From positions 186,001-250,000 of the forward strand of contig NW_008805074.1 of NCBI RefSeq assembly GCF_000004825.1: a DNA stretch of 64,000 nt, given 5' to 3'. The notes under the pieces were generated by a model. The model ran no database searches and was not told the DNA's origin. It saw only the letters and a list, made by a program, of their open reading frames with translations. This document shows positions 12,861 through 41,791 of the stretch, piece by piece (position 1 is the stretch's first letter; every line of letters starts with the position of its first letter). The position numbers and the translations under genes were made by a program. This DNA comes from Heterostelium album PN500. Lineage: Eukaryota; Evosea; Eumycetozoa; Acytosteliales; Acytosteliaceae.

Positions 12861-13549
12861 TCTGTTTTAATGTGATTCATACAAACAACAGTGTACAAGT
12901 TAATTTAAACTTTTCTCTTTTCTGACTATCATTAGAGAAATAAGAAGGACATTAAGGAAGTCAGAGGAAACAATCTATTATATTGTTAAGCAAAATAAAA
13001 AATTGTTATCTTTATAACCAGTACTTGAACAAATTATTAAGAAAGAAATTAAATTTTTTTTAAAAATTAATTCACCTTGTAAAGCAAGCTTAGGAAAGTG
13101 GTTAAATCCGCTAGACTCAAGTTCTAGTCCGCAAGGTTCGGGAGTTCGAATCTCCCAGCTTGCACAACATTTTTACACTGTTCTTACCGCATGCGGACGG
13201 AAGTTTCAACTAAAACTGTAAAGTTTTTGTTCCCTTTTAATTGGAACCTCCTCTTTTTTTTTTTAAATAAAAAACTAAAGTTTCTATAACTTAGATTACA
13301 ACTAAATACAATTGTAAAACCAAATTGGATGTATAAGTTATATTTCACGATAAAATGTAGTTGTTTATTTATTTTTACACAGACTAATATTAACTCTTGA
13401 GAATTTTTAATTAACTCAGCTCAATGGGTCATTTTTGTTTTTTGTCATTTTTAAATACAAATTTCAATTTCTTCTTCGCCATCCTTTGACTACCCACAAC
13501 TTTTTTTACTTAAATTTATAATTGTCTTTTAAAGACTCTTTTTAAAGTT
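12861..13549. other. intergenic between FNIP genes, holds a tRNA
   Basis: Apart from the tRNA at 13084-13164 I see no gene in this AT-rich spacer. No retrotransposon end is visible on either side of the tRNA, although tRNA flanks are common insertion sites in dictyostelids. Confidence 0.6.
13084..13164 (+). tRNA. tRNA-Leu (anticodon CAA)
   Basis: The 81-nt gene folds as a class II tRNA. The 7-bp acceptor stem is GCAAGCT/AGCTTGC with discriminator A. The anticodon stem is CTAGA/TCTAG around the loop CTCAAGT, giving anticodon CAA. There is a short extra arm, and the T-stem is GGGAG/CTCCC around TTCGAAT. Internal A-box (TAGGAAAGTGG) and B-box (GAGTTCGAATC) sequences for RNA polymerase III are present, and a T5 run ends the unit at about 13170. 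No intron and no encoded CCA. It decodes UUG. Confidence 0.95.
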
Positions 13550-38940: not shown

Positions 38941-40252
38941 ATGAGTAATCCTCCTCCTCCAATACCACCAAAGCCAACAGCAACAGCAACATCACCTCCA
39001 AATCAGCCACCTGGAAACTACCCACCTCCACAGCAACAAGGTTATCCTCCACAACAACAACAAGGTTATCCTCCACAACAAGGTTATCCACCACCTCAAC
39101 ATCAACAAGGTTATCCTCCACAAGGTTATCCTCCACAACCTGGTTATCCACCACAACAAGGTTATCCACCACCACAACACGGTTATCCACCTCCACAACA
39201 AGGCTATCCACCACAACAAGGCTATCCACCACCACAACATGGTTATCCACCTCCACAACAACAACAAGGTTATCCACCACAGCAAGGTTATCCTCAACAA
39301 CCGGGTTACCCACCTCCACAACAACAAGGTTATCCACCATCCCAGCAACCCGGCTATCCTCCACAACCTGGTTATCCACCACAGCCAGGCTATCCAGCAC
39401 AGCCACAACCAGGAACAGCAAAACCAGGTACAAAACTGATGGCTCCAGTCGGAAGCAAGTTTGTTACCGCACCACTGTCACATCTGAATGTCCGCATCAT
39501 TTCGGCTAGGAATCTAATGGCAGCGGATGTAAATGGTAAGAGCGATCCCTATTGCCGTATCAAAGTACCAACATTATCAAAGTCCTACTCTACCAAAGTT
39601 ATTCAAAAGAATCTAAATCCTACTTGGAATGGTATGTGACTAATTCCATCCAGCGACAGTGAAAAACAATTATTCTTTCAGTTTTCAATGGAATTTACAT
39701 GTTATAAATCTGATATCTCATACATTTACTAATTTATCTGAAAAAACTATAGAATCATTCCAAATAGATATCTCCAATTCAATGTATGATGCAATAGTTA
39801 TTGAAGTGTATGATAAGGATGCTGTTGGTTCGGATGACTTGATAGGATATGTTGCATTCGATCCATCGCTTCTACCGAAGGGCATAGAGGTTTGCACATG
39901 GGAGAAGCTAAGCTTTGTTCCACATGGTGAAATTCAAATAGCACTGACTGCAATCAATTTCGGTCTAGAGATGATTCCACCAACCTACGCACAAGAGTAT
40001 ATCAACTATAGACAATCGCTGCCATCGGTCAGCAAGAAAGGTATGGAAAAGGCAAAATCAAAGAGTCACACTAAGAAATCGAAATCAGGCAAGAAAGTCA
40101 AAGAAGCTGGACCGTATGCAGGAAAAGCACCACCCACCGGTTACAGCATTGCCAACGGTTGGGTTAAGAAGAATCCATCGATCGGCGAACAAACCACAAA
40201 AGCAATCGGTAGCGGACTTAAATCTTTCAAGAAATTCGTTGATAAACTATAG
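38941..40252 (+). CDS. C2-domain protein with GYPPQQ repeats
   Basis: Two exons, 38941-39631 and 39753-40252 (intron 121 nt), giving 396 aa. The junction restores the C2 motif NPTWN-ESFQID. The first 160 residues are about 20 tandem [12 protein letters not shown] units, a low-complexity tail common in amoebal membrane-associated and phase-separating proteins. The C2 domain (about 175-300) has the Ca2+-binding Asp positions ([10 protein letters not shown] and [11 protein letters not shown]), so calcium-dependent phospholipid binding is likely. After it comes a Lys/Ser-rich segment and a [16 protein letters not shown] tail with a final amphipathic helix. The upstream Met at 38869 gives a hydrophobic leader, but MSNPPPP at 38941 suits this family better. 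Confidence 0.88.
39020..39410 (+). repeat. coding minisatellite encoding GYPPQQ units
   Basis: Imperfect tandem units of 15-24 bases (GGTTATCCWCCACAACAA type) code for the repeat tail of the C2 protein. It is long enough to be open in several frames on both strands, so the antisense frames here are not genes. Confidence 0.9.
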
Positions 40253-40365
40253 TTTTTATAATTACTACAAAGTATTATTGGAAATTATTATAATAATAAA
40301 GTTGTATATGTATATATATTTAAATAATTTATTGTTATTAGATTAATTAAAATTTAATAATCAAA

Positions 40366-40433
40366 ATTGATTTGATTTGATTGATTTGATTTGATTTGAT
40401 TTGATTTGATTTGATTTGGATTTGATTTGATTT
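40366..40433. repeat. (TTTGA)n pentanucleotide satellite
   Basis: About a dozen units of TTTGA with a few 4- or 6-base variants, lying between the convergent stops of the C2 gene and the endonuclease-dUTPase gene, 23 bases from the latter's stop. Confidence 0.9.
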
Positions 40434-40456
40434 CAATCCACTCTACTGAAGAGTGG

Positions 40457-41791
40457 TTAATTGGTAGCATTTGGTGGAGTGAATACTCCGTTATTCTTGG
40501 CTCTTTCCTCGGTGGAACCAAAACCACCTGCACCTCTACCGGTATCTTCGAGCATATCAGCGGTGACTTCGACAACTTGGAAGTGAATGATTGGTCTTGG
40601 AATCATTTGGAATCCACAGAATGGAAGTTGGATATCTGGTGCGTTTGGATCAACCTTGGTGAGTGCGATCATGATTGATCCGACGTAGGCTCTATCGATG
40701 ATACCAACACTGTTGGCTAACATGTATCCACTCTTGCTCAGCGAGGATCTTGGCACGACGTCCATATAGAAACCTGGGGGTGGACGTACTTTGATACAGG
40801 TATCGTAGAGGGTGGTCACCGAGTTGAATGCTCTCACCGTTTTGATTACGGTCAGATCGTAACCACTGTCACTTGCTCTCGACTTTGAAGGGATGACAGC
40901 ATCCGGTGAGGTTCTGCTGACTGTGAACATTGGATCGTCACGAACACCCAATGTGTTGTTGTTGGCCGCTGGACACCAAACACACAAATCCATATATTTA
41001 TTGTATTTCGATTGGTGATGATACTTACTGCCATCGTAGATCTTTCCAAGGAAATCGAGTGCGTTCACTCCACTCCATTGCATGGTTGACAAGTCCTCTC
41101 CGACGGTGTGTGGAACGTCGACAAGTTCCGCCATCGACTTGAGCATCTGACTGGATTTGCATGACAACGAAACGATGGGCGAGCAAGATTCACGCTGAAC
41201 GAGCGATCCTTCGCCATCAAAGAATCCACGAACGAAAGCGAGCGCCACTGTCTTTGTGCTGAATTGTGGGAGCACCATGCTCGACGACTTTGAAGCAACG
41301 TCTTTCAATTGCAAGTGAGCACAAACATCGGAAGTCATCTGCTTCGAGGTGAAAGTGACACTGAGTAGTTCGTCGTTGCTCGATTTATGAATGACTGGAA
41401 TCTCTGGACAAACGATATCTCTCAACTGCTGGATACAAGCTTCCTCTGTTCTGTTGGTTTCAATGGTGATCGATTGACCGTCGTCTCCAATCACACCGAC
41501 ACTTGCAAACCAACCGAGAAGATAGGCCTTCGCTTCGGAATCAAGGGTGCTCAATAGACTCTCATCAAAGCTGCAATTTGGATTGACCACCGCTTGCTTG
41601 GTGCCGACAGATGCTCTAGAACAGTGGATACAAATGATCTTTCCCGAGTGATTGGCACGGAAAAGAACAGTATCCTTATGTGGCATCTCGTATTGATTAC
41701 GACATTTGTCAGAGACCTTTGAATCACATTCTACACGCACCTTGATATGTGAACCAATTGAAAGTCCTGTTGTATTACTTAGAATTGTCAT
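40457..41791 (-). CDS. LAGLIDADG endonuclease-like / dUTPase fusion protein
   Basis: One uninterrupted exon, 444 aa. The N-terminus has a Cys-rich zinc-ribbon-like part (CDSKVSDKC, then CIHC). Next are two LAGLIDADG-type helices: LLGWFASVG (about residue 91) and FVRGFFDGEGS (about 186). The second keeps the acidic residue; in the first it is Val, so nuclease activity is doubtful. The C-terminal 140 residues are a complete trimeric-type dUTPase: motif 1 ASDSGYDL, motif 2 VPRSSLS, motif 3 VGIIDRAYVG, motif 4 near PRPIIHFQVVEV, and motif 5 DTGRGAGGFGST. The dUTPase part should hydrolyse dUTP to dUMP. A fusion of these two is atypical for a cellular gene; giant-virus origin or a captured homing endonuclease are possibilities. 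Base use resembles its neighbours. Confidence 0.85.
   Translation of the reverse strand: MTILSNTTGLSIGSHIKVRVECDSKVSDKCRNQYEMPHKDTVLFRANHSGKIICIHCSRASVGTKQAVVNPNCSFDESLLSTLDSEAKAYLLGWFASVGVIGDDGQSITIETNRTEEACIQQLRDIVCPEIPVIHKSSNDELLSVTFTSKQMTSDVCAHLQLKDVASKSSSMVLPQFSTKTVALAFVRGFFDGEGSLVQRESCSPIVSLSCKSSQMLKSMAELVDVPHTVGEDLSTMQWSGVNALDFLGKIYDGSKYHHQSKYNKYMDLCVWCPAANNNTLGVRDDPMFTVSRTSPDAVIPSKSRASDSGYDLTVIKTVRAFNSVTTLYDTCIKVRPPPGFYMDVVPRSSLSKSGYMLANSVGIIDRAYVGSIMIALTKVDPNAPDIQLPFCGFQMIPRPIIHFQVVEVTADMLEDTGRGAGGFGSTEERAKNNGVFTPPNATN

Follow-up and report, generated by a model that had tools for sequence, protein, structure and literature searches.

Homing endonucleases are usually thought to persist in introns, inteins or the gaps between genes, and how a domain of this kind comes to share one reading frame with an enzyme of nucleotide metabolism is the question raised by a gene of the slime mould Heterostelium album PN500. 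The gene lies in a stretch of 64,000 nucleotides, here called the window, corresponding to positions 186001-250000 of one contig (NW_008805074.1) of a genome of 32.9 Mb in 39 contigs, an assembly that may be incomplete. At 40457..41791 of the window, on the minus strand and where a first-pass annotation made from the letters alone had placed it, a single open reading frame (ORF) without an intron encodes 444 amino acids and a stop; the ORF itself, Pfam, PHROGs, a structural model and structure comparison describe it as a LAGLIDADG-dUTPase fusion gene. It is probably a cellular dUTPase of viral ancestry that has retained a homing endonuclease domain.

Two domains in one protein

The C-terminal part of the protein is, by profile matches and model, of the dUTPase fold. 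Pfam matches residues 298-427 (E 1.6e-12), the PHROGs dUTPase family phrog_135 matches residues 291-433 (E 4e-23), and residues 286-422 of an AlphaFold model built from a 26-row alignment (predicted local distance difference test score, pLDDT, 85.1) match dUTPases in the VIA structure comparison. The domain, placed at residues 287-428 (40508..40933, minus strand, as are all features of the gene) by Pfam, alignments and structure comparison, keeps motifs I, II, III and V; motif IV reads LPFCGFQ, with Gln395 kept but without the basic residue (Arg or Lys) that the majority of fused relatives carry at the Cys position or beside it. The earlier description of a zinc-ribbon-like head, two LAGLIDADG helices and a dUTPase is upheld by Pfam, PHROGs and the model and, for the head, by recurring cysteines, with the reservation that "all five motifs" is true only loosely, because motif IV is altered. 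Residues 429-444 (40460..40507) form a C-terminal tail of low model confidence that, in the alignment, the relatives L019 and L020 lack (such labels denote loci of relatives in virus contigs or bacterial genomes).

The LAGLIDADG domain occupies residues 82-276 (40964..41548) according to Pfam, PHROGs, alignment and model. The first-pass annotation staked its assignment on profile matches to residues ~85-270, and these were found: Pfam LAGLIDADG_3 at residues 182-223 (E 5.4e-5, 23.8 bits with a cut-off of 22.5) and the PHROGs endonuclease family phrog_4645 at residues 69-268 (E 1.6e-15). In the VIA comparison, model residues ~82-277 match I-Tsp061I, I-DmoI and WhiA. Phmmer with residues 1-285 found no LAGLIDADG chain in the PDB, and all 50 matches listed by Foldseek for the window model are dUTPases, none of them LAGLIDADG. 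As modelled, and in line with the Pfam and PHROGs matches, this part of the protein has a LAGLIDADG fold whose two motif helices belong to a single chain. It has neither of two familiar contexts: with respect to inteins, no Hint family occurs among Pfam matches up to E 10 and no piece of dUTPase precedes the endonuclease; with respect to WhiA, the C terminus is the dUTPase, with no C-terminal helix-turn-helix (HTH).

Loss of a catalytic acid

To be active, an endonuclease of this type needs an acidic residue where each of its two LAGLIDADG helices ends. Alignments place Val98 at the catalytic acid position of motif 1 (residues 90-99, 41495..41524) and Glu194 at that of motif 2 (residues 186-195, 41207..41236), just as had been read from the sequence in the first instance. 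The motif-1 position is Asp in 11 of 11 phage LAGLIDADG proteins aligned; among 34 fused relatives the Asp is kept in 16 and lost in 18, of which 10 are viral and 8 belong to the Desulfurobacteriaceae. Because its motif-1 acid is Val98, the window domain is classed as derived and not as an active endonuclease, and the loss makes double-strand cutting by the protein unlikely. The first-pass annotation went on to propose that the domain may now do no more than bind DNA or nick one strand.

Much else is retained. If conserved positions are defined as those kept in at least 14 of the 16 acid-bearing viral fusions, the slime mould gene retains 34/43 in the endonuclease, 5/5 in the head and 44/50 in the dUTPase, the changed positions including Asp98 to Val and Arg261 to Ser. 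The head, a Cys4 zinc-ribbon-like segment of residues 16-60 (C22, C30, C54 and C57; 41612..41746) recognised from recurring cysteines and only putatively zinc-binding, has these cysteines at the same spacing in 8/16 acid-bearing fusions; most of the rest have a Cys-rich head of another kind, and no head is present in L219. The retention of Glu194, the fold and the Cys4 head would suit a protein that continues as a selfish nuclease in its slime mould host and cuts or nicks DNA with its single remaining acid, but such a role is improbable given that Val98 replaces the motif-1 acid, Ser261 replaces the conserved Arg, and the gene is present in one copy, the genome holding no LAGLIDADG_3 (PF14528) or phrog_4645 match other than the fusion gene.

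Acid-less domains elsewhere in the family have diverged further. Nine viral domains and one bacterial domain (three Desulfurobacteriaceae sequences were left out of this comparison) lie further out than the slime mould domain for their dUTPase distance, at z -2.3 to -4.4, and their endonuclease identity to acid-bearing forms is 15-28% at a dUTPase identity of 47-59%. These values bear on the idea that the LAGLIDADG domain was taken over, rather as in WhiA, for DNA binding or regulation, and now either directs the dUTPase to DNA or acts on expression of its own gene. Because endonuclease identity is so low at such dUTPase identity, a conserved DNA surface is doubtful in the ten acid-less domains, and recruitment is on the unlikely side.

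dUTPase genes of the slime mould

A PF00692 profile search of the slime mould genome returned one match, the fusion gene, as did a search with the Arabidopsis dUTPase (35% identity); no match to the all-alpha dUTPase family PF08761 was found in that genome. The fusion therefore looks like the sole dUTPase gene of the assembly. Dictyostelium discoideum carries one ordinary dUTPase, which shares 73% identity with the Arabidopsis enzyme over 138 residues (PMC6947831), and an orthologue of this type, if in the assembly, should have been detected. A foreign gene in the nucleotide pathway of a slime mould has precedent, because prokaryote-like dCTP deaminases and ThyX are described for social amoebae (PMC10733785).

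Relatives in viruses

When IMG/VR was scanned with the endonuclease alignment (80 loci, the best 80 of at least 317 relatives), the best matches were the full-length fusions L019 (420 aa, 40% identity) and L020 (414 aa, 36%). Full-length co-linear fusions in virus contigs are 36-42% identical to the window protein, which is at most 43% identical to any aligned relative. A second virus scan, with patterns from the dUTPase parts of six fused proteins, gave 51 loci, including contigs seen before and near copies; in 38/51 the dUTPase domain is preceded by 100 residues or more (23 having both acids of the LAGLIDADG motifs and 15 not), a proportion that counts against the proposed history in being no frequency, since the patterns were derived from fused proteins. 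An extension of that length is missing from the other 13, among which L210 is a fusion gene whose frame is broken. A scan with three fused proteins gave three loci, on the L019 contig, the L020 contig and one further contig, and one with 12 fused proteins (best 80 of at least 478 relatives) gave fused loci, L233-L236, all on contigs already seen. Across all loci there are 36 fused ORFs that differ in their C-terminal parts, Desulfurobacteriaceae accounting for 8 of these. From alignment and the dUTPase tree described below, the window protein is judged a member of a LAGLIDADG-dUTPase fusion family, defined here as co-linear, in one frame and with the dUTPase inside the fused group.

The N-terminal domains of the family vary. 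They are shorter in L181, L198 and the Desulfurobacteriaceae, and an L188-type domain matches LAGLIDADG more weakly in profile comparison (Prob 46, E 2e-4). In the viral fusion at L231 2380-3429 both halves look decayed, the LAGLIDADG acids having been lost and motifs II, III and V of the dUTPase changed. In a Thaumarchaeota record (L143 1437-3407) a LAGLIDADG domain of the same type sits in frame within a protein that, by eye, looks TnpB-like.

The nature of the viruses was approached through marker genes in 24 virus records, 22 of them carrying a fusion; in the other 2 a free-standing endonuclease adjoins a dUTPase. The phage terminase phrog_2 occurs in 9/24 (8/22 fusion and 1/2 free-standing records), and a weak phrog_9 terminase match (E 2.2e-4) in one further fusion record brings the total to 10/24; one more phrog_2-positive record is a bacterial genome outside the 24. 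The giant-virus capsid was found in 0/24, in a search that had no positive control among the control genomes and on records that may be fragments. The first-pass suggestion of a large DNA virus of amoebae as the source gains no support from these counts. Photolyase genes are often seen in giant viruses, and a photolyase-like ORF (by eye) lies near the unfused L242, at L242 1537-4438, in a record that is possibly from a eukaryotic virus and whose dUTPase stands at the edge of the fused group; against such an origin stand the terminase and capsid counts, so that descent from a giant virus of amoebae is improbable.

Phylogeny of the two domains

The dUTPase trees comprised 113 rows and, under a mixture model, 62 rows, the latter leaving out the fused L231 and L109 and 49 unfused rows of the former. 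Left out beforehand were dUTPases at 92% identity or more and endonuclease domains at 70% or more, segments shorter than 110 (dUTPase) or 150 (endonuclease) residues, and, from the endonuclease tree, matches below 60 bits, hence most acid-less domains. In both dUTPase trees the window dUTPase falls among the fusions, away from the two eukaryotic sequences. Its grouping with Arabidopsis and yeast was rejected (approximately unbiased (AU) test, p 3.1e-17). The smallest starred set that contains it has 27 rows (98/94), 26 of them fused and the other the frame-broken L210.

Acid state has changed repeatedly among the fused rows, at least six times on the best tree when the window is counted as acid-less. 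The acid-less viral L198 is sister to the Desulfurobacteriaceae (99/95), and the acid-less L181 is sister to the acid-bearing L183 (98/97). A single clade of all acid-less rows was rejected (p 0.025; 0.027 without the window). Several independent acid losses among the fused forms are supported by these sequence trees, and one single fusion event for the family is plausible.

Repeated change of this kind, together with the shorter N-terminal domains of L181, L198 and the Desulfurobacteriaceae, would be expected if the N-terminal domain were a neutral relic, only the dUTPase mattering and removal of the domain needing an exact deletion that leaves a start codon. Yet within the 27-row starred set no row has cleanly lost the domain, though two unfused sequences, L241 and L242, are placed at the margin of the wider group, and the bacterial form of the domain, described below, has many invariant columns. 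A relic is a possible account, held tentatively, and the relic and the recruited part carry about equal weight as explanations of the N-terminal domain.

In the quick endonuclease tree (116 rows), the window, all 15 fused domains and five free-standing endonucleases (L021, L022, L023, L025 and L045) form a 21-row group with a Shimodaira-Hasegawa-like approximate likelihood ratio (SH-aLRT) of 89.

Gene order beside dUTPase genes

At L021, L022 and L023 a dUTPase ORF lies immediately upstream of the free-standing endonuclease on the same strand, with gaps, counted from listed start codons, of 43 nt (L021), 26 nt (L022) and 73 nt (L024, a near copy of L023). At L183 and L020 a dUTPase-like ORF without the residues of motifs II, III and V stands directly upstream of the fused gene, and on the L185 contig another dUTPase-like ORF (L233) lies ~2.5 kb upstream. 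No comparable relics were noted at the slime mould locus. Taken together, these arrangements suggest an order from free neighbour, through fusion beside a decaying resident dUTPase and fusion alone, to cellular fusion.

The first-pass annotation suggested that the endonuclease had lived in or next to a dUTPase gene before its capture as an N-terminal domain. That neighbourhood finds backing in the three of five nearest free endonucleases that adjoin a dUTPase and in the occurrence of the fusion in many lineages; the capture itself probably happened outside this gene and its host, since many virus contigs carry fusions in which both acids are intact, and the fusion may have reached the slime mould ready-made.

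The L183 phage offers two further observations made by eye: upstream of both the fusion gene and the decayed dUTPase ORF there is a TnpB-like ORF (L183 154-1242), and in the record of the same phage the terminase large subunit seems to hold an in-frame intein (L313 806-3754).

A bacterial family with the fusion

In a genome-collection scan, fused dUTPases were recognised, among the best 80 of 137 relatives, only at Desulfurobacteriaceae loci. The protein is ~285 aa long; its first 140 residues show the skeleton of both LAGLIDADG motifs, with no acids and no head. In profile comparison this part matches the acid-bearing viral domains (Prob 74, E 2.7e-5, 132 columns), and for the model of one member, L106, the Foldseek and VIA matches listed are dUTPases only, with no LAGLIDADG. 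The putative identity of the L106 N-terminal domain as LAGLIDADG is accordingly tied to the profile comparison and motif skeleton alone. The fused protein is matched in 21/22 Desulfurobacteriaceae genomes, over about its whole length in 19, over residues 1-225 in one and 170-285 in another. PF00692 matches 20/22 genomes, as a single match in 16/20, the other four having further dUTPase-family ORFs. The ~140-aa N-terminal domain has 31 invariant columns in nine aligned sequences, which counts against a neutral relic.

Proposed history and function

From what the computation yielded, namely the fusion and its relatives, the order of genes around them, the loss of acids and the failure to detect a second dUTPase, we infer homing, an order of steps, a direction of transfer and an enzyme activity. 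A phage lineage of LAGLIDADG homing endonucleases would first have existed as free genes beside dUTPase genes. In phages, the endonuclease would then have been fused in frame to the N terminus of the dUTPase, an arrangement in which the endonuclease would take along a copy of the very enzyme whose locus it occupies. The fusion would have spread among phages, the endonuclease acids being lost several times while the dUTPase stayed conserved, and copies would have entered cells: the Desulfurobacteriaceae, with both acids lost, and the slime mould, with the motif-1 acid lost. Today the protein would act as the dUTPase of the cell, presumably as a trimer like its relatives, and its N-terminal domain would fold without making double-strand breaks, at most binding DNA or serving as a scaffold.

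A number of observations weigh against this history. The altered motif IV could lower dUTPase activity. Divergence of the slime mould endonuclease part, the greatest of 17 at its dUTPase distance, is only mild (z -1.15 vs -0.82 to 1.35), so that its relaxation is not strong. Among phage records, 0/306 matching the window protein and 0/929 matching L019 cover 80% of the query in one place; 18 weak matches were obtained with window residues 1-285, and the viral scan with the window protein alone gave no match. No phage terminase match was found in 14/24 virus records. A clade of all fused rows was rejected (p 6e-7, with L210 counted as unfused); without L210 and the long-branch L021, 29 fused rows fall on one side of a branch with support of 44/0, and the unfused L241 and L242 stand at the group's edge. 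The endonuclease tree has no starred branch near the window. At L025 and L045 no dUTPase ORF occurs in the DNA examined; a dUTPase ORF is present in 8/80 endonuclease loci (fused to the endonuclease in 2, next to it in 4 and over 2 kb from it in 2), and a decayed upstream dUTPase in only 2/36 fused loci examined. Finally, because the free-standing endonucleases lie downstream of the dUTPase and the fused domain upstream, the fusion step needs a rearrangement, and none was seen.

A broader proposal is more speculative still. The viral homing endonuclease-dUTPase may be a self-sufficient homing cassette, bringing with it a complete, functional substitute for its target gene; it could thereby spread by gene replacement, be hard to delete and need no intron or intein splicing. 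Such a cassette might have displaced ordinary dUTPases in phages, a bacterial family and a slime mould, its fold being reused as a non-cutting part of the enzyme where homing stopped.

Genomic context

The fusion gene is flanked upstream by a divergent DnaJ gene and downstream by a convergent C2-domain gene whose last ORF ends at 40252, and the window also holds HSP70, kinase and phosphatase genes. Its G+C content at third codon positions (GC3) is 0.48, where 15 other window ORFs of at least 250 aa range from 0.23 to 0.51. That relatives are viral and the gene lacks introns might raise the suspicion of an assembly artefact or contaminating phage DNA; given these neighbours, a base composition within that of the window and a protein no closer to its aligned relatives than stated above, this is very improbable. 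Just 3' of the stop codon, at 40365-40435, are short tandem repeats of a TTTGA-like unit, and a tRNA-Leu (CAA) gene lies at 13084-13165.

Relation to known systems and significance

Already known are domesticated LAGLIDADG proteins (HO/WHO, PMC7282813; WhiA, PMC3781837) and free-standing phage endonucleases (PMC2988022). The WHO elements and HO of yeasts (PMC7282813) pair a LAGLIDADG-type endonuclease, an intein-zinc finger fusion, with a neighbouring metabolic gene; WHO elements home into the aldolase gene FBA1, replacing its 3' end, and clusters of genes and pseudogenes build up there, one member having been domesticated. A likeness may lie in an endonuclease adjoining a metabolic gene (L021, L022, L023, L024) and in the decayed dUTPase at L183 and L020. 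The difference is that here a phage-type endonuclease, with no intein splicing domain, is joined in frame to a complete dUTPase, and that homing is what we infer.

The Seg proteins of phage T4 are GIY-YIG enzymes. Its Mob proteins are HNH enzymes (PMC2988022, on free phage endonuclease genes and intronless homing); the genes beside dUTPase at L021, L022, L023 and L024 resemble these in being free-standing, whereas the enzymes here are LAGLIDADG and, in fused forms, joined to an enzyme. WhiA (PMC3781837) joins its LAGLIDADG domain to an HTH and is a transcription factor; the partner here is an enzyme of nucleotide metabolism. The D. discoideum dUTPase (PDB 5F9K; PMC6947831) is likewise of the trimeric family and encoded by a single gene in a social amoeba, but the window enzyme matches it at 44 bits only, groups with viral fusions and carries an extra domain. 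No endonuclease-dUTPase fusion family that has repeatedly lost its cutting residues and also occurs in cells was found in the open-access literature searched, which does not imply its absence from print.

One lineage of homing endonucleases thus appears to have become fused to an enzyme of nucleotide metabolism, to have lost its cutting residues several times and to have been taken on as dUTPase in two cellular settings, a bacterial family and a slime mould; the latter is presumably related to D. discoideum, whose own dUTPase is an ordinary eukaryotic one. The series of forms, from free beside the gene, through fused with and fused without acids, to cellular, lets the domestication of a selfish nuclease be tested, and the slime mould gene is a candidate for phage-to-eukaryote transfer of an apparent sole dUTPase gene.
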